Shown: positions 745-64,000 of the stretch, piece by piece
How the letters are laid out: each line of letters opens with the position of its first letter
How positions within the stretch are numbered: position 1 is the first letter of the stretch
Assembly (NCBI RefSeq): GCF_014077625.1
Contig: NZ_JACFXU010000013.1
Coordinates: forward strand, 1,178,001 to 1,242,000
From: Sediminihaliea albiluteola
GTDB lineage: Bacteria; Pseudomonadota; Gammaproteobacteria; Pseudomonadales; Halieaceae
DNA: 64,000 nt
Reading direction: 5' to 3'
The notes under the pieces: model-generated
What the model was told of the DNA's origin: nothing
Databases searched by the model: none
Seen by the model: the letters and a program-made list of their open reading frames with translations, nothing else
Made by a program: the position numbers and the translations under genes

Positions 745-760
745 AGCACATAACGTGCCA
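745..760 (-). promoter_or_regulatory. Sigma-54 (-24/-12) promoter of the small Tat-signal gene
   Basis: On the minus strand the sequence reads TGGCACG-TTAT-GTGCT. The -24 element matches the RpoN consensus perfectly. The -12 element keeps the essential GC, and GG and GC are separated by exactly 10 bases. Transcription should start near 734, about 60 bases before the GTG at 673. The sigma-54 activator PrsR is encoded in the same locus, and a dyad shared with the other sigma-54 promoter lies upstream. Confidence 0.75.
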
Positions 761-830
761 AACTTCTTAGTCATTGATTATAAAGGTAATTTTTAGCCAC
801 TTCCTATCCAAGCGACAAAACCTTGGTAGA

Positions 831-851
831 ACTGTAAAAAAAGCTGACAGT
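831..851. promoter_or_regulatory. Putative PrsR enhancer site (copy B)
   Basis: Dyad ACTGT-N11-ACAGT, with AAGCTG filling the right half of the spacer. It sits 72 bases upstream of the -24 element at 745-760, a normal distance for a sigma-54 enhancer. A 21-bp site in the same orientation, with the same N11 spacing and 17 identical bases out of 19 in the alignable core, lies upstream of the PEP-CTERM promoter (15313-15333). No third copy was found by eye in other intergenic regions. Assignment to PrsR is inference. Confidence 0.5.
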
Positions 852-3402: not shown

Positions 3403-5466
3403 ATGCCGGATAATGTGGGACTTTATAGCTACCTAGCTGCCTGCTTTGTATTTGGGGCGCTTAGCTTGTTGCTGTTGGTCTCTTGGCGCAAGCGCCCCTA
3501 TGCTGCGCTACTGATTATTGCCAACTTACTTACCGCGGTCTGGGCCGGCACGATTGGTATCGGTACCCTCGCACAGCAGCCACCGCTAGTGCTAATACAA
3601 GTAACAGAATTATGCCGTAATGCCGCGTGGATTTTCCTCTTATTACGCCTAACAAGTAGTCAATTTGCAGACCAATACTGGCTTTTAGCTGGACAGCGCT
3701 GGATATCAGTGTTTTGTGCGGGCCTGTTGCTTGTAACAACGCTGCTATTTCTACCTAATGCCCTGAGCGGCATCGCCCCAGCAATAGCTAAAAGTAGCAG
3801 CACAATCACACCGCTTACCTGGCTGGCAGTTTCGATCATTGCACTAGTCTTGATAGAACAGTTAATTCGCAATGCATCTGACAGTGAACGCTGGTCAATC
3901 AAGTACCTAGGCCTGGGCCTATGCTGCCTGTTTGGCTATGATTTTTTCCTCTACGCAGAGGGTCTGTTATTTCTAAAGCTAGACGCCAATCTATGGCAAG
4001 CGCGGGGTCTTGTTTCAACAGTAGCCGCACCGCTGCTGGCTGTGGCTATTGCTCGCAATTCAGACTGGCAACTCAGCTTGCATGTATCGCGCCATGTTGT
4101 GTTCCACTCGGTGACTATTATTGCCGCTGGTTGCTACCTGATGGCCATGTCAGCTGTCGGATACCTTATTCGAATGCTGGACACCACTTGGGGCGGCGTG
4201 CTGCAAACCTCCTTCATGGTTGCCGCAGGCGCTTTTCTATTGGTACTTCTGCTATCAGACAAGTTTCGTGCTAAAACTCGGGTATTTCTCAGCAAACACT
4301 TTTTCAGTTACCAATATGACTACCGTGAAGAATGGCTAAACTTCACCCGCTCCCTCGCCGAGATTGACGATGACGATGTACCGGAGGGTATCGTGCGAGC
4401 CATGGTGCCCTTAGTGGGCAGCCAAGCAGGCTTACTCTTTGCAGAAGAAGGTGGCCGCTACACTTTGCTGGCTAATTACCAGATGCCGCCACCGGAAGGT
4501 GAGCTTGGCATGGGCAACCTAGCTCACTGGCTTAGCCAAAGCGGCTGGGTAATTGATATTGATGAGTTCCAGCAGCAGCCTAGTAGCTACCCTCAGCTGA
4601 TCCTCCCCAACTGGGTTCAGCGAGTATCGCAGCCCTGGCTAATAGTGCCTTTGATGTTTGGCAACCGCCTCCCTGGTATTTTGCTAATACGACGCTCCGA
4701 TTTACAGCAGAGCATTCACTGGGAAGAACGCGACCTCATCAAAACCGCCGCGCGTCAGGCCGCCAGCCACTTGGCTCAGTTTTTAGCCCGCAAGGCGCTA
4801 GTAGAAGCGCGCCAATTTGACGCCTTTAACCGTCTCTCCGCCTATGTTATTCACGACCTGAAAAACATCCTCGCACAGCAATCCTTAATCGTCGCTAATG
4901 CTGAAAAACATAAGCATAACCCAGAGTTTATCGATGATATGATTGATACCATACACAACTCGGTGGAGCGCATGACGCGCTTGATGGAGCAGATGCGCAG
5001 CGGCTTGCGCGAAGCAGAACTTCAACACTTTGACCTTGCGGAGTTATTGGGCCGAGTTGTCGCCAATCGCTCTTCTGGAAAGCCCTGCCCTAGCCTGCAA
5101 GTTGAAGCTGGCCCCTTTCCGATGCAGGCAGACCCTGAGCGCCTAGCCACTGTATTTACACACTTAGTTCAAAATGCACAGGATGCCTGTGGCAAGCACG
5201 GCGAGGTCAGTCTGCGTTTGCACGCTCAGGATAGACTATGGGTGACCAGCGTTCGTGACAACGGTCAGGGCATGAGTCCAGAGTTTATCAGCAAACGACT
5301 TTTTACACCTTTTGACAGTACTAAAGGCTTAACAGGTATGGGCATTGGTGCCTTTGAGAGCAGAGAGTATATTCGCAGTATTGGTGGCGATATCCGCGTT
5401 GATAGCCAAGAGGGCTCTGGCTCGACATTCTGGGTGTTTATTCCAGCGCCCGATAATAACGAGTAA
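3403..5466 (+). CDS. prsK: PEP-CTERM system sensor histidine kinase PrsK
   Basis: 687 residues. The first ~290 residues are a run of hydrophobic membrane helices, followed by a GAF-like cytoplasmic region. The kinase core shows a phospho-acceptor H-box at His484 (YVIHDLKNILAQ), an N-box (HLVQNAQDACG) and ATP-lid glycines (DNGQGMS, GMGIGAFES). Length and architecture match the PrsK family found in exosortase A genomes. It should autophosphorylate in response to an unknown envelope or EPS-related signal and pass the phosphate to PrsR, encoded 36 bases downstream. The gene is divergent from the sugar-nucleotide operon. A small GC hairpin (5470-5485) separates it from prsR. The membrane part has no classical periplasmic sensor domain, so the signal may be sensed within the membrane. 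Confidence 0.92.
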   Translation: MPDNVGLYSYLAACFVFGALSLLLLVSWRKRPYAALLIIANLLTAVWAGTIGIGTLAQQPPLVLIQVTELCRNAAWIFLLLRLTSSQFADQYWLLAGQRWISVFCAGLLLVTTLLFLPNALSGIAPAIAKSSSTITPLTWLAVSIIALVLIEQLIRNASDSERWSIKYLGLGLCCLFGYDFFLYAEGLLFLKLDANLWQARGLVSTVAAPLLAVAIARNSDWQLSLHVSRHVVFHSVTIIAAGCYLMAMSAVGYLIRMLDTTWGGVLQTSFMVAAGAFLLVLLLSDKFRAKTRVFLSKHFFSYQYDYREEWLNFTRSLAEIDDDDVPEGIVRAMVPLVGSQAGLLFAEEGGRYTLLANYQMPPPEGELGMGNLAHWLSQSGWVIDIDEFQQQPSSYPQLILPNWVQRVSQPWLIVPLMFGNRLPGILLIRRSDLQQSIHWEERDLIKTAARQAASHLAQFLARKALVEARQFDAFNRLSAYVIHDLKNILAQQSLIVANAEKHKHNPEFIDDMIDTIHNSVERMTRLMEQMRSGLREAELQHFDLAELLGRVVANRSSGKPCPSLQVEAGPFPMQADPERLATVFTHLVQNAQDACGKHGEVSLRLHAQDRLWVTSVRDNGQGMSPEFISKRLFTPFDSTKGLTGMGIGAFESREYIRSIGGDIRVDSQEGSGSTFWVFIPAPDNNE

Positions 5467-5502: not shown

Positions 5503-6861
5503 GTGGCTGTAACAAAAAAACATTTGCTGGTTGTTGAAGACGATAAAGGCCTTCAAAACCAGCTAAAGTGGGCCTTTGAAGATTTTGAAGTGGCCATTGC
5601 TGGTGACCGTGAGGAGGCTATCGCTCAACTGCGCCGCTACGAACCCGGTGTGGTGATTCTCGACTTAGGCCTGCCGCCAGACCCTGGGGGCGTGAGCGAA
5701 GGTCTGGCTACACTCAGTGACATTCTATCCCTTGCACCGGAAACCAAAATTGTAGTGGTAACCGGCGACAGCGACCGCGCTAATGCGGTAAATGCCGTCG
5801 GCCGCGGCGCGTATGATTTCTACCAGAAGCCGGTTGATCCACAGTTACTCAATATGATTGTGGACCGCGCCTACCGTGTCTTTGAACTCGAGCGGGAGAA
5901 CTATCGGCTCAGCCAGTTTGAAGACAAAATGCCTCTCAAAGGCATTATTGCAACTAGTCCGCAAATGCTTCGTGTATGCCGGACCGTTGAAAAAGTCGCA
6001 CCTACCGATGTCACAACTTTAATCCTTGGTGCCAGTGGCACTGGAAAAGAGCGCATTGCTCAAGCTTTGCACGAATTAAGCCATCGCTCCAAGGGCAAAA
6101 TGATCGCTATTAACTGTGCCGCGATTCCTGAGAACCTATTGGAGAGCGAACTATTCGGATATGAAAAAGGCGCTTTTACGGGTGCCTCTCAAACCACACC
6201 CGGAAAAATTGAATATGCAGATGGCGGCACGCTGTTCTTAGATGAAATCGGCGATCTACCCATGGAGCTACAAGCCAAGCTCTTGCGCTTCCTGCAAGAG
6301 CGGGTGGTTGAGCGAGTTGGCGGGCGCAAGGAAATCCCGGTCGACGTACGCATTATCTGCGCCACCCATCAAGACTTAGAAGCCCGCATCGCCGACGGCC
6401 GCTTCCGGGAAGACCTCTATTATCGAGTGAGTGAGCTAAGCATCACTATTCCACCACTGCGAGAGCGGGACGGTGATGCGCTGGTATTAGCGACTGTCTT
6501 TCTCGACCGCTTTGCTCGGGAAATGGGCCGCAATATTAAATCATTCGACACAGAGGCACGCAAAGCGATTGAAAGCTATCACTGGCCCGGCAATGTGCGC
6601 GAACTCGAAAGTCGGGTAAAACGTGCTGTGATTCTCGCCGAAGGAACAAGCCTCTCTAGCGAAGACTTAGAATTAGAAAGTGTGGCCACTGGGCAAGATT
6701 TGCCCTTGAACCTAAAGCAGGTCCGGGAGGACGCGGAGCGCAAGGCCATCTTACGCGCCTTAAGTCACTGCGGGGATAACATATCGGACACGGCAAGCCT
6801 GCTTGGCATCACCCGCCCCACTTTGTATAACTTATTGGAAAGGTATCAGCTTAAAAACTGA
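5503..6861 (+). CDS. prsR: PEP-CTERM system sigma-54 response regulator PrsR
   Basis: 452 residues in three parts. A receiver domain carries the phospho-acceptor Asp54 in VILDLGLPP. The AAA+ activator domain has Walker A GASGTGKE (176-183), the sigma-54-contacting GAFTGA loop (223-228) and Walker B GGTLFLDEIGDLP. A Fis-type helix-turn-helix closes the protein (DTASLLGITRPTLYNLL). It should be activated by PrsK, bind enhancers and drive RpoN-dependent transcription of PEP-CTERM genes. The start is GTG at 5503 with a strong ribosome site (AAGGAAGGAG) seven bases upstream; an ATG at 5501 is out of frame and stops after three codons. Two -24/-12 promoters with a shared upstream dyad occur in this locus and are the obvious candidate targets. 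Confidence 0.94.
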   Translation: MAVTKKHLLVVEDDKGLQNQLKWAFEDFEVAIAGDREEAIAQLRRYEPGVVILDLGLPPDPGGVSEGLATLSDILSLAPETKIVVVTGDSDRANAVNAVGRGAYDFYQKPVDPQLLNMIVDRAYRVFELERENYRLSQFEDKMPLKGIIATSPQMLRVCRTVEKVAPTDVTTLILGASGTGKERIAQALHELSHRSKGKMIAINCAAIPENLLESELFGYEKGAFTGASQTTPGKIEYADGGTLFLDEIGDLPMELQAKLLRFLQERVVERVGGRKEIPVDVRIICATHQDLEARIADGRFREDLYYRVSELSITIPPLRERDGDALVLATVFLDRFAREMGRNIKSFDTEARKAIESYHWPGNVRELESRVKRAVILAEGTSLSSEDLELESVATGQDLPLNLKQVREDAERKAILRALSHCGDNISDTASLLGITRPTLYNLLERYQLKN

Positions 6862-6883: not shown

Positions 6884-6907
6884 TGCAGCAGAGTTCAATC
6901 TGCTGCA
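6884..6907. terminator. Hairpin between convergent prsR and prsT
   Basis: A perfect 9-bp stem, TGCAGCAGA / TCTGCTGCA, with loop GTTCAA. It is followed on the plus strand, after six bases, by a short TTTT. It would end prsR transcripts and overlaps the stop codon and last codons of prsT. Confidence 0.5.
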
Positions 6908-9681
6908 GCTAATTTTGCATATAAGGCCTCAGCTGCTGCGCGCTCAGAGAACTCTTTATCGCTAGCAAGTAGCTTTTTAAGTAGTTCACGTGCAGTCACT
7001 TCATCCCCGGCAGCGAGCTCTACTTGTGCACTGTGATACTGAAACTCAGGAACCTCTGGAGACTCTGCCAGCAACTTAGAAAATATAGACCTAGCTTCTC
7101 CATACTTTCCATTGCTGCTCAGCACCATGGCCAAGGTATCCTGCACGGCAGCAGACTTACCCTCAGTTTGCTGAACTGCAGCACGCGCATATTCCAGGGC
7201 GCGCGCCGGTTGCTCGTCACGCAGCATCCAAGCCAAGTTATTTAAGGCCACCACATTATTGCTGTCTACATTAAGCACCGCGCTAAACTGCTCCATAGCA
7301 TCTCCAGCGCTTCCCGCTAAGCGGAAGCGTTCAGCTAAGAGCAAGCGCGGAGCCACGTCAGCTGGATGCTGATCAACCCAAGACTCTAAAGTGTCTTTTG
7401 CTAGGCTTTCATTACGCATCAGCAGATGCTGCTGTACCAAATTCATCAGCGTGCTGACACTGGGCTGATCCGCATGCATTTGTTGCAAAATACTGAGTGC
7501 TTCACCCGACTTACCATCTAAGTTCGCGGCGGCTGCTTGTAACTGCAATACCTGCGGACTCCCCGGCGCCAGCCGCAAGGCCTCCGTAAGATGTTGATTG
7601 AAACTTTCGCGATCAGCTTGAGTGTATGCGTAGCGGGCCATCGATAACTGCAGGCCTGGATCTTCAGGATTGAGTTCTAAGGCACTATTTAATGCACTGA
7701 CCATCCCTTCTTTATCACCCAAGCCCTCTGATACCGCAGCTAACACTCGATAGTCAGCCACACGAGGTTGGTCGATCAACTTGAAGAGTTTTTGCAGCTG
7801 CTGCTTAGCTTGCTCCAACTCACCCTGCTGCAATCTTGCCAAAGCCATGGTCCTGAGCACTGCTGGGTTATCCATATACTGTGGTTCCAGACCAGTGAAG
7901 GCACTAGCCACATTCTCGACCTGTTGATTACTCAAGTAATATCGAGCTATCAACAAGCGCGCTTGTAAGTATTGCGGCTTAGCACTACGTGCCCGCTCAA
8001 GGAAAGTGAGCATAGTCTCAAAATCACCTTGGTATGCGCTCACTGCTGCGTGTGCCATCAAACTTGGCACAAAGTCCCGGTGTTCTGCCAGCACCACTTC
8101 GTAATAGCGTTTAGCGGCAGCATAGTCCTGCTCAGCAAAGGCCAGCGTCGCCAGCGCGTGGTTAGCAGAGGGGTTGCCCGGCTCTAACACATCCGCCCTT
8201 TCAAATGCTTGCTTGGCCGATGCTTTATCTCTCAATGCAAACTGCGAACGGCCAATTAACAGCCACGGTTCAGGCTGTTCTGGCGCGCGGTCACGGTAAG
8301 CCTGCGCCGCCTCAAGGGCTTTTTTATTCTCGCCCTCTTGCAGCAATGCAGCCACCAGAACAGCATCAGCACTACCCGACTCCGGTGCCATTTCAATGGC
8401 CTGCTCTAAGAGATTAAATCCTTCCTGCTCACGTCCAGCGCTGAGGTAGCCAGCCCCTAAACGCATTTGAGCCGAGGCCGAGCCAGGCTCTAAACGCGCT
8501 ACCTCGGATAAGACATCCAGCGCCTCATCCATGCGCTGTTGACTGACCAGTGAGTTGGCAAGAATATTTAACAGGTCACTGTTGCCTGGCGTCTCTTCGA
8601 GCATCTGGCGAACCAGCTGTTCAGCCTTGTCCGCCTCGCCGAACCTAACCCACATCTCGGCCATGAAGCGATTACCGATAGGGTTGCTGTTATCAAGCTC
8701 GTAGAAATCTTTGATGTGACGGTAAGCCAAGTTATGATCACCGAGCTGAGCCTGAGTTAAGCCCATGTAAAGTAACACGCCCGGAATATCAAACTTTATT
8801 GGCTCGGCAATTAACAGCGCCGATAATGCCTCTGGGTAATTACCCGCATAAAACTCCACGAGCCCTAGAGCATAATTAACTCGAGGGGACTGGGGTACAT
8901 TATTTAGTAGTACTTTCAGGTCATTGCGCGCGGCATCAAAGGCTTGCTGCTGAATATTGACAAAAACTCGCTTAAGACGATATCCCAACAACTCAGGGTT
9001 GAGCTCAATCGCACGGCTATAATAATTAGCTGCGTCTGCGGGATTACTGGACTGTACTACATCACCCAGTAGAGCCCAGGCCAACCCATAGTCCGGGGCT
9101 TGCTCAGTCAAGGCGAGTAAATGATCACGTGCCGTCGCTAGCTCGCCATTGCGAGCAGCTAGCATAGCTTCCACATACTTTACGTAAGTGCTATCAGGCG
9201 CTAAAGCCAAGGAAGTTGCTAGGCGCCGCTGAGCGACAGCCAACTGTCCCTGCTGCATCTCAGCCATAGCTTTGGCGGCTAACACTGCCCCACGGCTACT
9301 ATCGGAGAGCCCCTCTAACTCGATCGCCTGCACATCTTGTAAGCGCCCTAAAGAAACCCAGGCTTGAGCAAGCAGAGGCAGTACGCGATCACGCTGCTCG
9401 TCACTTGCTCGATCGATAACCCGACCTAATTCTTTTTCCGCCGCCTCTAAATCACCGGCCTGGAAGTGCAGCTCACCGAGCAGCAGCCTAGCCTCCATAT
9501 TCGATGGGTTTTGACGCACTGCATTTTTTAGTTGGATAACAGCAGCCGCACTGTCACCTGCAGACAAATTCTGACCTGCCCGTTCAAGATACTCGGCATC
9601 TGAAATATCGCTTGAGCAAGCAAGCAAAGATAAAACAAACACTATCATTAAGGCTGCTGAAGCCGATCGCTTATAGCTCAT
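6895..9681 (-). CDS. prsT: TPR-repeat lipoprotein PrsT of the PEP-CTERM system
   Basis: 928 residues. The N-terminus is a lipoprotein signal (VLSLLACSSD, lipobox LLAC). The remainder is tandem tetratricopeptide-like helices, visible as recurring patterns of the type L-x3-A-x6-A-x8-P through to the C-terminus. Size and layout match the PrsT family, which regularly accompanies PrsK/PrsR. It is presumably anchored in the envelope as a scaffold for EPS export or protein sorting; the exact job is unknown. The ATG at 9681 has AAGGAAG upstream. The gene is convergent with prsR, which is the family's usual neighbour. I see no internal frameshift. The last ~200 residues keep the repeat pattern, so the protein looks complete. 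Confidence 0.92.
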   Translation of the reverse strand: MSYKRSASAALMIVFVLSLLACSSDISDAEYLERAGQNLSAGDSAAAVIQLKNAVRQNPSNMEARLLLGELHFQAGDLEAAEKELGRVIDRASDEQRDRVLPLLAQAWVSLGRLQDVQAIELEGLSDSSRGAVLAAKAMAEMQQGQLAVAQRRLATSLALAPDSTYVKYVEAMLAARNGELATARDHLLALTEQAPDYGLAWALLGDVVQSSNPADAANYYSRAIELNPELLGYRLKRVFVNIQQQAFDAARNDLKVLLNNVPQSPRVNYALGLVEFYAGNYPEALSALLIAEPIKFDIPGVLLYMGLTQAQLGDHNLAYRHIKDFYELDNSNPIGNRFMAEMWVRFGEADKAEQLVRQMLEETPGNSDLLNILANSLVSQQRMDEALDVLSEVARLEPGSASAQMRLGAGYLSAGREQEGFNLLEQAIEMAPESGSADAVLVAALLQEGENKKALEAAQAYRDRAPEQPEPWLLIGRSQFALRDKASAKQAFERADVLEPGNPSANHALATLAFAEQDYAAAKRYYEVVLAEHRDFVPSLMAHAAVSAYQGDFETMLTFLERARSAKPQYLQARLLIARYYLSNQQVENVASAFTGLEPQYMDNPAVLRTMALARLQQGELEQAKQQLQKLFKLIDQPRVADYRVLAAVSEGLGDKEGMVSALNSALELNPEDPGLQLSMARYAYTQADRESFNQHLTEALRLAPGSPQVLQLQAAAANLDGKSGEALSILQQMHADQPSVSTLMNLVQQHLLMRNESLAKDTLESWVDQHPADVAPRLLLAERFRLAGSAGDAMEQFSAVLNVDSNNVVALNNLAWMLRDEQPARALEYARAAVQQTEGKSAAVQDTLAMVLSSNGKYGEARSIFSKLLAESPEVPEFQYHSAQVELAAGDEVTARELLKKLLASDKEFSERAAAEALYAKLAAAD

Positions 9682-14204: not shown

Positions 14205-15125
14205 TTAGGCTTTAGACTGACCGCGACGGCGGCGTGTAAAACCTACACCTAGTAAGCCTAGCCCCATCAGTGCAAGGATTGAGGGCTCGGCAACTTCTCG
14301 AGCTGAAAGCTTCATGTCAAAGTGAAACTCGTTGGATTGATTCTCCTGAGTCTGCAAACCGATACAACCGGGGCCGACACCCACTTGCGCACAAGCACTG
14401 GCAGGCAGTGGCATGAGACCGTTACCGTCCAGTAGCACCTCGAAGGTGTACTTATAACCAGCTTGAACAAAGCTAAATGATAACTGCTCTGGGTTCAGCA
14501 CCAAGAACACATCATCGCATTCTGAGACAGAGGCGTCGAAACACCCGCCTTGGTTAGGCGTCTCAAAAAAGTCAATGTTGATCAGACTCGGGTTAACTGG
14601 AGGGTTAACTGTCAAGCTAGTGAAGTCGTTCGCTGCATTGGCTTGAGCGAGCCCGAACCACTGAGTCAATGTAACGGTATCGAGTGTTGAACCGGTAATA
14701 GGGAAGTTGTCATGAGTGTAAGTACTGCCGCCAACAATATCGGCATACAGACCACCGCCCTGATCGGTCAGTGCAAACTGGGTACGCATCCCATCAAAGG
14801 TTGTGGTGTTGGCACCTTCAACAGCCACTGTATCGCCATCAGCTGCTTCGATTGAGCCCATTGCACCATTTGTAATACTGAGCGCGCTCTGGTTTGCTTC
14901 GTTACCCCAGGCGATTTTTGAGTAGCCCTCTACGCCACCAAAGTTTGCTGGGTTGACCACCATTGGTCCTTCCTGAGTTGGGACTGGATTGCCATTCACA
15001 AGCAAGGCGTTTTCCCACATAGAGAGAAGAGCCCAGTCCCAATCGGTAACCAGCGCTGCGTTAGCCTGCGCTGATAATGCTAGCGCCGAGCCAACGGCGA
15101 CTGCTTTAGCAAAAGTAAGTTTCAT
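14205..15125 (-). CDS. THxN-type PEP-CTERM sorted surface protein
   Basis: 306 residues. It has a Sec signal peptide (AVAVGSALALSAQANA), a secreted middle part, and a C-terminal sorting tag made of EVAEPS, a 15-residue hydrophobic segment (ILALMGLGLLGVGF) and the basic tail TRRRRGQSKA. The middle carries TYTHDNFPI, the THxN signature of a known PEP-CTERM subfamily. Such proteins are cut by exosortase and released or attached to the EPS matrix. The tag reads V-A-E-P-S where V-P-E-P-S is usual, so the first proline is replaced. It carries a sigma-54 promoter and a putative PrsR enhancer, a 5' leader of about 100 bases, a good ribosome site (GGAGAAGG) and its own terminator. Confidence 0.88.
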   Translation of the reverse strand: MKLTFAKAVAVGSALALSAQANAALVTDWDWALLSMWENALLVNGNPVPTQEGPMVVNPANFGGVEGYSKIAWGNEANQSALSITNGAMGSIEAADGDTVAVEGANTTTFDGMRTQFALTDQGGGLYADIVGGSTYTHDNFPITGSTLDTVTLTQWFGLAQANAANDFTSLTVNPPVNPSLINIDFFETPNQGGCFDASVSECDDVFLVLNPEQLSFSFVQAGYKYTFEVLLDGNGLMPLPASACAQVGVGPGCIGLQTQENQSNEFHFDMKLSAREVAEPSILALMGLGLLGVGFTRRRRGQSKA

Positions 15126-15234: not shown

Positions 15235-15250
15235 AGCAAGCTCAATGCCA
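15235..15250 (-). promoter_or_regulatory. Sigma-54 (-24/-12) promoter of the PEP-CTERM gene
   Basis: The minus strand reads TGGCATT-GAGC-TTGCT: TGGCA at -24, perfect TTGCT at -12, and 10 bases between GG and GC. Transcription would begin near 15224, leaving a leader of about 100 bases. It fits the presence of the sigma-54 activator PrsR. Confidence 0.8.
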
Positions 15251-15312: not shown

Positions 15313-15333
15313 AGTGTTAAAGAAGCTGACAGT
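15313..15333. promoter_or_regulatory. Putative PrsR enhancer site (copy A)
   Basis: AGTGT-N11-ACAGT, 64 bases upstream of the -24 element at 15235-15250. It shares the 11-mer AAGCTGACAGT and the TGT(T/A)AAA half to its left with the site at 831-851. The other bases of this 315-bp divergent region (15126-15440) are AT-rich, with no further motif that I recognise. Confidence 0.5.
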
Positions 15334-62226: not shown

Positions 62227-64000
62227 TCAGAAGTTGTAGCGCAGCTCCATGCCATACATCCGCGGCTCATCTCGTCGATCATAAGCCGGGGAGCCATCGG
62301 AAAACTGCGAAGCCAGCTCACCGCCCAAACCACCGGGGTTTTTATTCCTCGGTTTCCAGTTGGTGGCGTTAGTGACATATGCGGCAATTTCCCAGTCGCC
62401 AGCGGGACTCAAATAAGCGACCCGGGCATTAAGCTGCTCCCGATCGCCGGTATCAGGACAAGAATTGAATGGCGCCTCTGTCAGATCGCCGGTAGCTGAG
62501 CCATCAGAAATGACCAGCTTGCCATCTATCTTGGCCAGCTTATACACATCGGAAGGCCGGCCCAGCGCACTGTTGTTCACCACATAAGTACAGCTGCTCT
62601 GGGACACGCCTTCGCTGAAGTTATAAGCTGCAGAAAAACTCAGCTCTCCGCCATTAGCGAAATCTAAGGTATAGGTACCGCCAAGGCTGTAGTTAAGATC
62701 GGGTGATTCAGCAAAGTCATCTCCGGAGCGATCAATGCTCTGACAGACACCGTCGACCACTTTGCGCTCTTGTCGGCGGGTGTATTCGGCGTCGAGCAAA
62801 CCGGTATTAAAAAACAACTCCAAGGCGGGAATGGGCAGCCAGTTAACACTGAGCTCCATGCCCTTGCCTTTGACATCAGATGTTTCAAAGAGGTATGCGC
62901 CTGTGCTGCTATTGGACAGACATGCCGACTCGATAAACTCTAACTGCTGAAGATTGTCGTATTCATAATTAAACAGCGCCCCATTAACACGCAAAGTGTT
63001 ATCTAGCCATGAGGACTTCATCCCCAACTCGTAGTTAGTGACCTCCTCAGGATCAAATGCCGGCGCTAAAACTTCACCTGCGCTATTAAAGCCACCCGCT
63101 TTGTAACCCTCAGAATAGGAGGCATAAAGCAGTACATCATCCGTGACATTCCAGTCTAGCACTAGCCGCGGCGTTACTTGCGACCAGCTTTTGTCTGACT
63201 CTAAATACCCCAGTGCACCATTGGGATCATAATTCCCCTGCCCATCTAAGCGGGTTTCTGTTGGAAAACCAAAAGCCAGCACGTATTCATTGAACTCAAC
63301 ATAGCGACCGAAGGTCTTGTCATCTTCGGTATAGCGCACACCAGCGGTGAGCGATAAGTTATCGAGAATATCGTAGCTTAGGTCGACGAAGACGCCTGTT
63401 GATTCGTATTCACCATCAATAAAAATATTTTCGCTGAAATCGATGCCAGAATTAAGCGCCTGGGCACCACTGCTAAAAGCGCGGCGTCCATAGGGGTCAG
63501 GAATAACGAGGAAAGCAACATCTAGCGCCTGGCCAGGCGCTAGAGCGCTGTAGGGTACGCCAATTTCCCGCTCTGCCACTAACTTATCCAGTGACTGTGG
63601 GCTGAGAATAATGCCACTTTGTTGTTTAGCGTGCTCCCAATAATAGCTCGCACCAGCTGTCCAACGGAGGCGCTCACCATACTCTCCGTCTAAGCGGAAC
63701 TCCTGACCAAACTGTTTGTTTTTCTCAGCATTGAGATCATTAAAACGATACAGTGGATCAGCTGAGCCGTCCTTTTCTTCTGGGTTGCGCGAATTATAAG
63801 TGCGCCAAGAAGAGATTGAGGTCAGTGAAGCAAAGTCCAGGTCATAGGCAACGTTCAGCGAACTGCCAAACAAGTAGCGCCGCTCAGGCAGTAACTCATC
63901 GTTTTCTACCTTGGTAAAAGCACCTTTTTTATGCCGCGGCCCGATGACCGCAGAGGAAGCAGGGCGAGAATCCTGATCGACCTCGTCATACTCCGCACGT
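62227..64000 (-). CDS. TonB-dependent receptor, C-terminal part (N-terminus off the window)
   Basis: At least 590 residues, open to the right edge. The barrel pattern is clear: alternating strands, DNLSLTAGVRYTEDDKTFGRYVEF, APAFDPEEVTNYELGMKSSW (the family's late-barrel block), SYSEGYKAGGFNSAG, and a C-terminal GMELRYNF ending in Phe. It imports a large or scarce nutrient across the outer membrane with TonB energy. The signal peptide and plug domain lie beyond 64000. Two cysteine-containing loops (ACLSNSS and VCQS; also SCTYV and NSCPD) suggest disulfides outside. The YKAGGFN-type receptors are abundant in marine degraders of lipids and aromatics, which fits the SDR next door. The ligand is unknown. 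Confidence 0.9.
   Translation of the reverse strand, partial: RAEYDEVDQDSRPASSAVIGPRHKKGAFTKVENDELLPERRYLFGSSLNVAYDLDFASLTSISSWRTYNSRNPEEKDGSADPLYRFNDLNAEKNKQFGQEFRLDGEYGERLRWTAGASYYWEHAKQQSGIILSPQSLDKLVAEREIGVPYSALAPGQALDVAFLVIPDPYGRRAFSSGAQALNSGIDFSENIFIDGEYESTGVFVDLSYDILDNLSLTAGVRYTEDDKTFGRYVEFNEYVLAFGFPTETRLDGQGNYDPNGALGYLESDKSWSQVTPRLVLDWNVTDDVLLYASYSEGYKAGGFNSAGEVLAPAFDPEEVTNYELGMKSSWLDNTLRVNGALFNYEYDNLQQLEFIESACLSNSSTGAYLFETSDVKGKGMELSVNWLPIPALELFFNTGLLDAEYTRRQERKVVDGVCQSIDRSGDDFAESPDLNYSLGGTYTLDFANGGELSFSAAYNFSEGVSQSSCTYVVNNSALGRPSDVYKLAKIDGKLVISDGSATGDLTEAPFNSCPDTGDREQLNARVAYLSPAGDWEIAAYVTNATNWKPRNKNPGGLGGELASQFSDGSPAYDRRDEPRMYGMELRYNF

Follow-up and report, generated by a model that had tools for sequence, protein, structure and literature searches.

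The closest described counterpart of the regulatory element analyzed here is found in Haft 2006 (PMC1569441), in the available text of which a motif 1 of 17 nt with the 3' end TTTACA, followed by a sigma-54 motif, is located upstream of 99 out of 167 PEP-CTERM genes of proteobacteria. According to that text, a spacer of 32–92 nt (mean 62.8, s.d. 10.6) leads from motif 1 to the −24(GG)/−12(GC) element, PrsR is predicted to be the protein that binds motif 1, and a few sites before other genes are noted. Another example is pepA of Aquincola tertiaricarbonis, an RpoN1-dependent PEP-CTERM gene with a mapped transcription start and a predicted enhancer upstream (PMC9850573, 2023). No binding test of PrsR was found in PMC9850573 or in the available text of Haft 2006 (PMC1569441). 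Given the 2006 prediction and the work on pepA, a PrsR site of this kind does not count as new.

Two further systems resemble the genes that lie behind the element. The HPr-rel-A system (TIGR04352, TIGR04353) is represented by curated protein families, and no paper naming this system was found in the open-access literature searched. In lasso-peptide clusters (PadeK/ThcoK and PsmK/PsmN; PMC9266682), the precursor is phosphorylated by a tailoring kinase and receives a hexose from a nucleotidyltransferase homologue.

The window, a stretch of 64,000 nucleotides of the Sediminihaliea albiluteola genome, contains two copies of the element, A and B (Table 1). Copy B, compared by length and 3' end with the element in the available text of Haft 2006 (PMC1569441), is likewise 17 nt long and ends in TTTACA; its distance of 72 bp to the promoter lies within the range of 32–92 nt and is followed by GG/GC, and the setting is also alike, as prsK, prsR, prsT, and rpoN (one gene) are all present in the genome. 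Unlike the usual element of that text, in which a PEP-CTERM target is usual and not required, copy B is followed by a non-PEP-CTERM operon. Copy B and pepA of A. tertiaricarbonis (PMC9850573) have in common a −24/−12 promoter, an enhancer upstream, and prsT nearby, whereas pepA is itself a PEP-CTERM gene. The downstream operon corresponds to the HPr-rel-A system, since PqqD_rel_X (36.9 bits, cut-off 35) and HprK_rel_A (341 bits, cut-off 200) pass their curated cut-offs and an NTP_transf_5 gene (170 bits against PF14907) comes next; the family names, by which the comparison was made, cover neither the Tat-signal gene at the start of the operon nor the PrsR box. The likeness to lasso tailoring enzymes, namely a kinase and a nucleotidyltransferase-like enzyme beside a precursor gene, is a resemblance only: the putative substrate here is a predicted Tat-exported protein, and no lasso cyclase or leader protease was recognized among the neighboring ORFs of the own operon locus (L080), some of which were scanned with profiles. 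New here are the composite counts in this genome, the co-occurrence of the motif with prsR in the family, the helical phasing of the spacing, and the recognition of the HPr-rel-A operon as an additional and widely conserved class of targets of the predicted PrsR box.

Architecture of the Locus

A preliminary description of this DNA had placed a −24/−12 promoter, with a dyad 72 bases upstream, before a small Tat-signal gene, and both elements were located there on the minus strand, with 72 bp from the final ACA of the box (833) to the T of TGG (760). Close counterparts of this promoter, TGGCATGGTATGTGC and TGGCACACAATGTGC, occur at a spacing of 73 bp in genomes G303/G334 and G295. It had further been claimed that the same dyad, with 17 of 19 identical bases, stands before the sigma-54 promoter of a PEP-CTERM gene at a similar distance and that PrsR is encoded between the two copies. 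The former is true, with a spacing of 64 bp at copy A, and the latter holds as well: prsK, prsR, and prsT are all positioned between copies A and B, and prsR scores 704 bits against TIGR02915 (cut-off 503).

Table 1. Features of copies A and B and of the associated genes, with positions given within the window unless stated otherwise
Feature	Position	Strand	Basis or remark
PqqD_rel_X (TIGR04353), 5' part, second operon gene	1-155	minus	profile match
Rest of PqqD_rel_X, HprK_rel_A (TIGR04352), and NTP_transf_5 (PF14907)	left of window, L080:9873-12156		profile matches
Small Tat-signal gene, first of the HPr-rel-A operon	284-673	minus	129 aa from GTG 673; 127 aa from ATG 667
Sigma-54 promoter (−24/−12) of copy B, TGGCACGTTATGTGC = TGGCACG-N4-GTGC	746-760	minus	sequence
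PrsR box (predicted), copy B, 17-mer core TGTCAGCTTTTTTTACA	833-849	minus	sequence; same box type upstream of homologous operons in other genera
Copy B, wider imperfect dyad ACTGTCAGCTTTTTTTACAGT	831-851	minus	sequence
prsK, histidine kinase	3403-5466	plus	TIGR02916
prsR, sigma-54 activator (receiver, AAA+, and Fis-type HTH domains)	5503-6861	plus	TIGR02915
prsT, TPR protein	6895-9681	minus	TIGR02917
PEP-CTERM protein gene, THxN family	14205-15125	minus	NF038125, PF07589
Sigma-54 promoter of copy A, TGGCATTGAGCTTGC	15236-15250	minus	64 bp from box A
PrsR box (predicted), copy A, 17-mer TGTCAGCTTCTTTAACA	15315-15331	minus	sequence
Copy A, wider 21-bp element ACTGTCAGCTTCTTTAACACT	15313-15333	minus	sequence

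Definition of the Motif and Its Occurrence in the Genome

The dyad originally proposed, ACTGT-N11-ACAGT, is present at copy B as described but is not the conserved unit; the right arm of copy A reads ACACT, and the 21-bp dyad is therefore imperfectly shared. Its core CTGT-N11-ACAG, taken alone, is found twice in the window against 0.92 expected, which is chance level, and was dropped as a motif; the second exact match lies at 62901. The AAGCTG spacer, suggested as a general feature, is confined to one sub-type, and the proposed combination of dyad and spacer is too strict. The conserved unit is instead TGTCRR-N5-TTWACA, a consensus distilled from the best matches to the 19-mer ACTGTCAGCTTNTTTNACA in the own genome, of which copy B carries the instance TGTCAG-N5-TTTACA, a 17-bp imperfect inverted repeat; the bases flanking the 17-mer are barely informative (about 0.4 bit at most).

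The earlier argument that a motif shared by two RpoN promoters is unlikely by chance is borne out by these counts: copies A and B alone match the 19-mer exactly within the 3.3 Mb of the genome, and TGTCRR-N5-TTWACA combined with GG-N10-GC yields nine sites in the same genome against none for the reversed pattern. The next best three matches to the 19-mer all lie 62–96 bp before a −24/−12 element. One candidate with three mismatches and a −24/−12 element at 94 (L007) is situated inside a coding gene and was judged a chance match.

In the own genome, PF07589 detects six PEP-CTERM genes, and each of them has the box and the promoter, at spacings of 63, 64, 64, 65, 74, and 75, and a seventh PEP-CTERM-like gene has a box at a spacing of 96. 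Boxes also occur elsewhere. At L226 (C5:88686-88781 of the own genome), a PrsR box and TGGCATATATATTGC stand in phase about 200 bp before a TonB-dependent-receptor-like gene, which is a candidate for an unexpected member of the regulon. At L003/L054 (C5:73618-73711), a box and a sigma-54 site are followed by approximately 360 nt without an obvious gene, possibly an extended leader or a small RNA missing from the annotation, and then by a membrane acyltransferase-like gene. In genome G340 (L043), a PrsR box lies at 1500, and the gene that begins about 70 nt past its promoter is acyl-carrier-protein (ACP)-like, a non-PEP-CTERM target.

Co-occurrence with prsR and Phasing of the Spacing

When 120 genomes from the same family were scanned for TGTCAGC-N4-TTNACA plus a sigma-54 element, 48 composite matches were obtained in 23 genomes, and the reversed pattern returned none. 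The gene downstream mostly carries a PEP-CTERM-like C-terminal tail, as judged by inspection. As had been anticipated, the motif is enriched in prsR genomes: prsR exceeds the cut-off in 40 of the 120 genomes and is present in 21 of the 23 that are motif-positive (Fisher p = 1.6e-10), where sites from related genomes are samples without independence. In the remaining two, both fragmented assemblies, prsR was undetected; conversely, the strict composite pattern is absent in 19 of the 40 prsR-positive genomes. The expectation that such enrichment would be confined to PEP-CTERM genes is wrong, because the HPr-rel-A operon, which begins with the Tat gene, forms the second target class.

The distances between box and promoter cluster at 41–43, 51–54, 62–66, 72–75, 85–86, 96, and 106–108, with almost none between, and the best period of the main set is 11.0 bp (about 10.9–11; vector length 0.86), a strength equaled in 0 of 5000 simulated sets. 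HPr-rel-A promoters of other lineages fall into groups of 61–64, 72–78, 83–87, and 93–97 with a period of 11.05 (0 of 2000 simulations). Such phased spacing is the mark of a protein that has to bind on a fixed side of the DNA with respect to the polymerase, and a dependence on the helix face has been reported for a sigma-54 system under NtrC control (review PMC7408454). The available text of Haft 2006 (PMC1569441) contains no mention of helical phasing.

The HPr-rel-A Operon as a Target

Behind copy B, the order of genes is Tat gene, PqqD_rel_X, HprK_rel_A, and NTP_transf_5, followed by exopolysaccharide genes. In two other genera (G041 and G308), a Tat-signal gene, a PqqD-like gene, and HprK_rel_A stand in the same order behind the same box type, the small first gene of G308 being recognized by position and size only, without an NCBIfam match. 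Within the family, 33 of the 34 genomes with HprK_rel_A also contain prsR (p = 1.6e-21), and a box, called at HPr-rel-A loci with at most one mismatch, precedes 27 of 31 untruncated loci together with a phased sigma-54 site, compared with a mean of 0.03 in a control with shuffled box columns. The predicted structure of the HprK_rel_A kinase (pLDDT 94) matches the folds of PEP carboxykinase and HPr kinase.

A wider set comprises at least 80 loci from a GTDB scan (Massilia, Thiobacillus, Sedimenticola, Magnetovibrio, Malonomonas, and others), at least six of which come from assemblies also included in the family set. Among the matches listed, the box and promoter precede 52 of the 77 operons with enough upstream sequence, compared with 0.13 in the shuffled control and 2 on the reverse strand, and prsR exceeds its cut-off in 45 of the 50 HprK_rel_A genomes checked. 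Of 82 loci among these matches, 79 contain PqqD and 82 contain the NTase, and in nearly all of them PqqD, kinase, and NTase share the same strand and this order. The box with its promoter ahead of the HPr-rel-A operon thus recurs across several proteobacterial classes, and copy B is no odd exception. A recognizable box is absent at 25 of the 77 operons among the matches listed, and prsR is present in most of those genomes; therefore, control of the HPr-rel-A operon by PrsR would be common and not universal.

Lineages differ in detail. The HPr-rel-A box of Thiobacillus-like and related genomes (L166, L179, L180, L187, L191, L192, L203, L215, and L224) is TGTCGGAATAATTTACA, a distinct sub-type whose position 5 is G and whose spacings, at 74–78, are slightly long. 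In two Hydrogenophaga genomes (G421 and G422; loci L213 and L217), HprK_rel_A is present, prsR is below the cut-off, and the operon box is absent, which is consistent with a joint loss of regulator and site.

The Predicted Tat-Signal Protein

The first gene of the operon in the window encodes the twin-arginine motif SRRQFAR within a putative signal, SRRQFARGAAVGGVVLLSLGNRSAWG, identified by inspection. It matches neither TIGR01409 nor PF07589/TIGR02595 and is thus not a PEP-CTERM protein, unlike the product of the gene behind copy A; no Pfam or NCBIfam family matched any of the first-gene Tat proteins tested, the window gene included. The consensus of 46 first genes comprises SRRxF (SRRrf ... 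TLaSRP), a hydrophobic stretch, and then C..SG..SGN.S ... C.G.sPGyW..h...W ... F..vF ... VAAlLNA, of which the window protein is a divergent and short version that lacks the PGYW segment. The core C..SG..SGN.S ... TPGYWK ... VAALLNA of this family, whose part up to TPGYWK is shared by most lineages, was seen at L165, L184, L190, and other loci. A simple Tat detector applied to the set of at least 80 loci was positive for 51 of 80, which is only a rough figure, because it missed the known cases L081 and L147 and took wrong frames in L146, L154, L196, and L222.

Proposed Mechanism and Alternative Explanations

In the proposed mechanism, PrsK would phosphorylate PrsR, which in its phosphorylated form would bind the imperfect inverted repeat of 17 bp. 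Through a short loop of the DNA, in phase with the helix, PrsR would then be brought to the RNA polymerase-sigma-54 complex at −24/−12, where the promoter would open, to yield a transcript of the whole cassette, i.e., the Tat-exported protein, the PqqD-like carrier, the HprK-like kinase, and the NTP_transf_5 enzyme. PrsR is accordingly the putative binder and PrsK its putative activator, and both the transcription start and the co-transcription of the genes are predicted. The core idea of the preliminary description, a PrsR enhancer before a sigma-54 promoter, finds strong comparative support in the co-occurrence with prsR, the zero or near-zero controls, the phasing, and the six of six PEP-CTERM genes, and the site of copy B is very probably a real binding site of this regulator of matrix proteins.

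Were chance responsible, copies A and B would be two unrelated dyads near sigma-54-like sequences, a coincidence made thinkable by the chance-level count of CTGT-N11-ACAG in the window and by the commonness of loose −24/−12 matches (106 found, 93 expected). The full composite, however, gives zero or near zero in its controls, and the spacing is phased and the arrangement conserved before homologous operons; on these grounds, chance is already refuted, and its likelihood is negligible. Another sigma-54 activator of the NtrC-like type might bind the box instead, with prsR merely co-occurring, both being found in exopolysaccharide loci. About a dozen NtrC-like regulators per genome are available for such a role, and prsR went undetected in two motif-positive family genomes; yet the strong co-occurrence is specifically with prsR, the same box precedes all six detected PEP-CTERM genes of the own genome, and PrsR was arrived at independently, by phylogenetic profiling, in the available text of Haft 2006 (PMC1569441), which renders another activator quite improbable.

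A further question concerns the extent of the transcript, as the box could drive the small Tat gene only, with the downstream HPr-rel-A genes expressed separately. The Tat gene stops at 284 and PqqD starts at 155, and the approximately 130 bp that separate them offer room for a promoter or a terminator. Against this stand the common strand and the PqqD-kinase-NTase order in nearly all loci (79/82 and 82/82 among the matches listed), as well as the position of the box, which in many lineages precedes the entire cassette, so that separate expression is considered unlikely. The stretch 745-851 is, in all likelihood, a PrsR box with a sigma-54 promoter that would transcribe the HPr-rel-A operon by the same switch as the PEP-CTERM genes.

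As to the function of the operon, it may be speculated, by analogy, that the HPr-rel-A cassette phosphorylates and further modifies the Tat protein before export. A broader, tentative possibility is that PrsR co-induces the PEP-CTERM matrix proteins and an unrecognized modification system, in which the PqqD-like carrier would present the Tat protein to the kinase and subsequently to NTP_transf_5, with phosphate and a sugar or nucleotide being added before Tat export into the exopolysaccharide matrix; the odds are judged to be somewhat against it.

Biological Significance

The PrsR element has been a prediction since 2006 and has until now been read as a switch of PEP-CTERM genes. The same box and the same phasing at the HPr-rel-A operon in several proteobacterial classes provide a regulatory context for an almost unstudied operon and suggest that its expression coincides with production of the exopolysaccharide matrix. 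They also draw attention to an undescribed family of predicted Tat-exported proteins, which, by analogy, would be the likely substrate of the HprK-like kinase.
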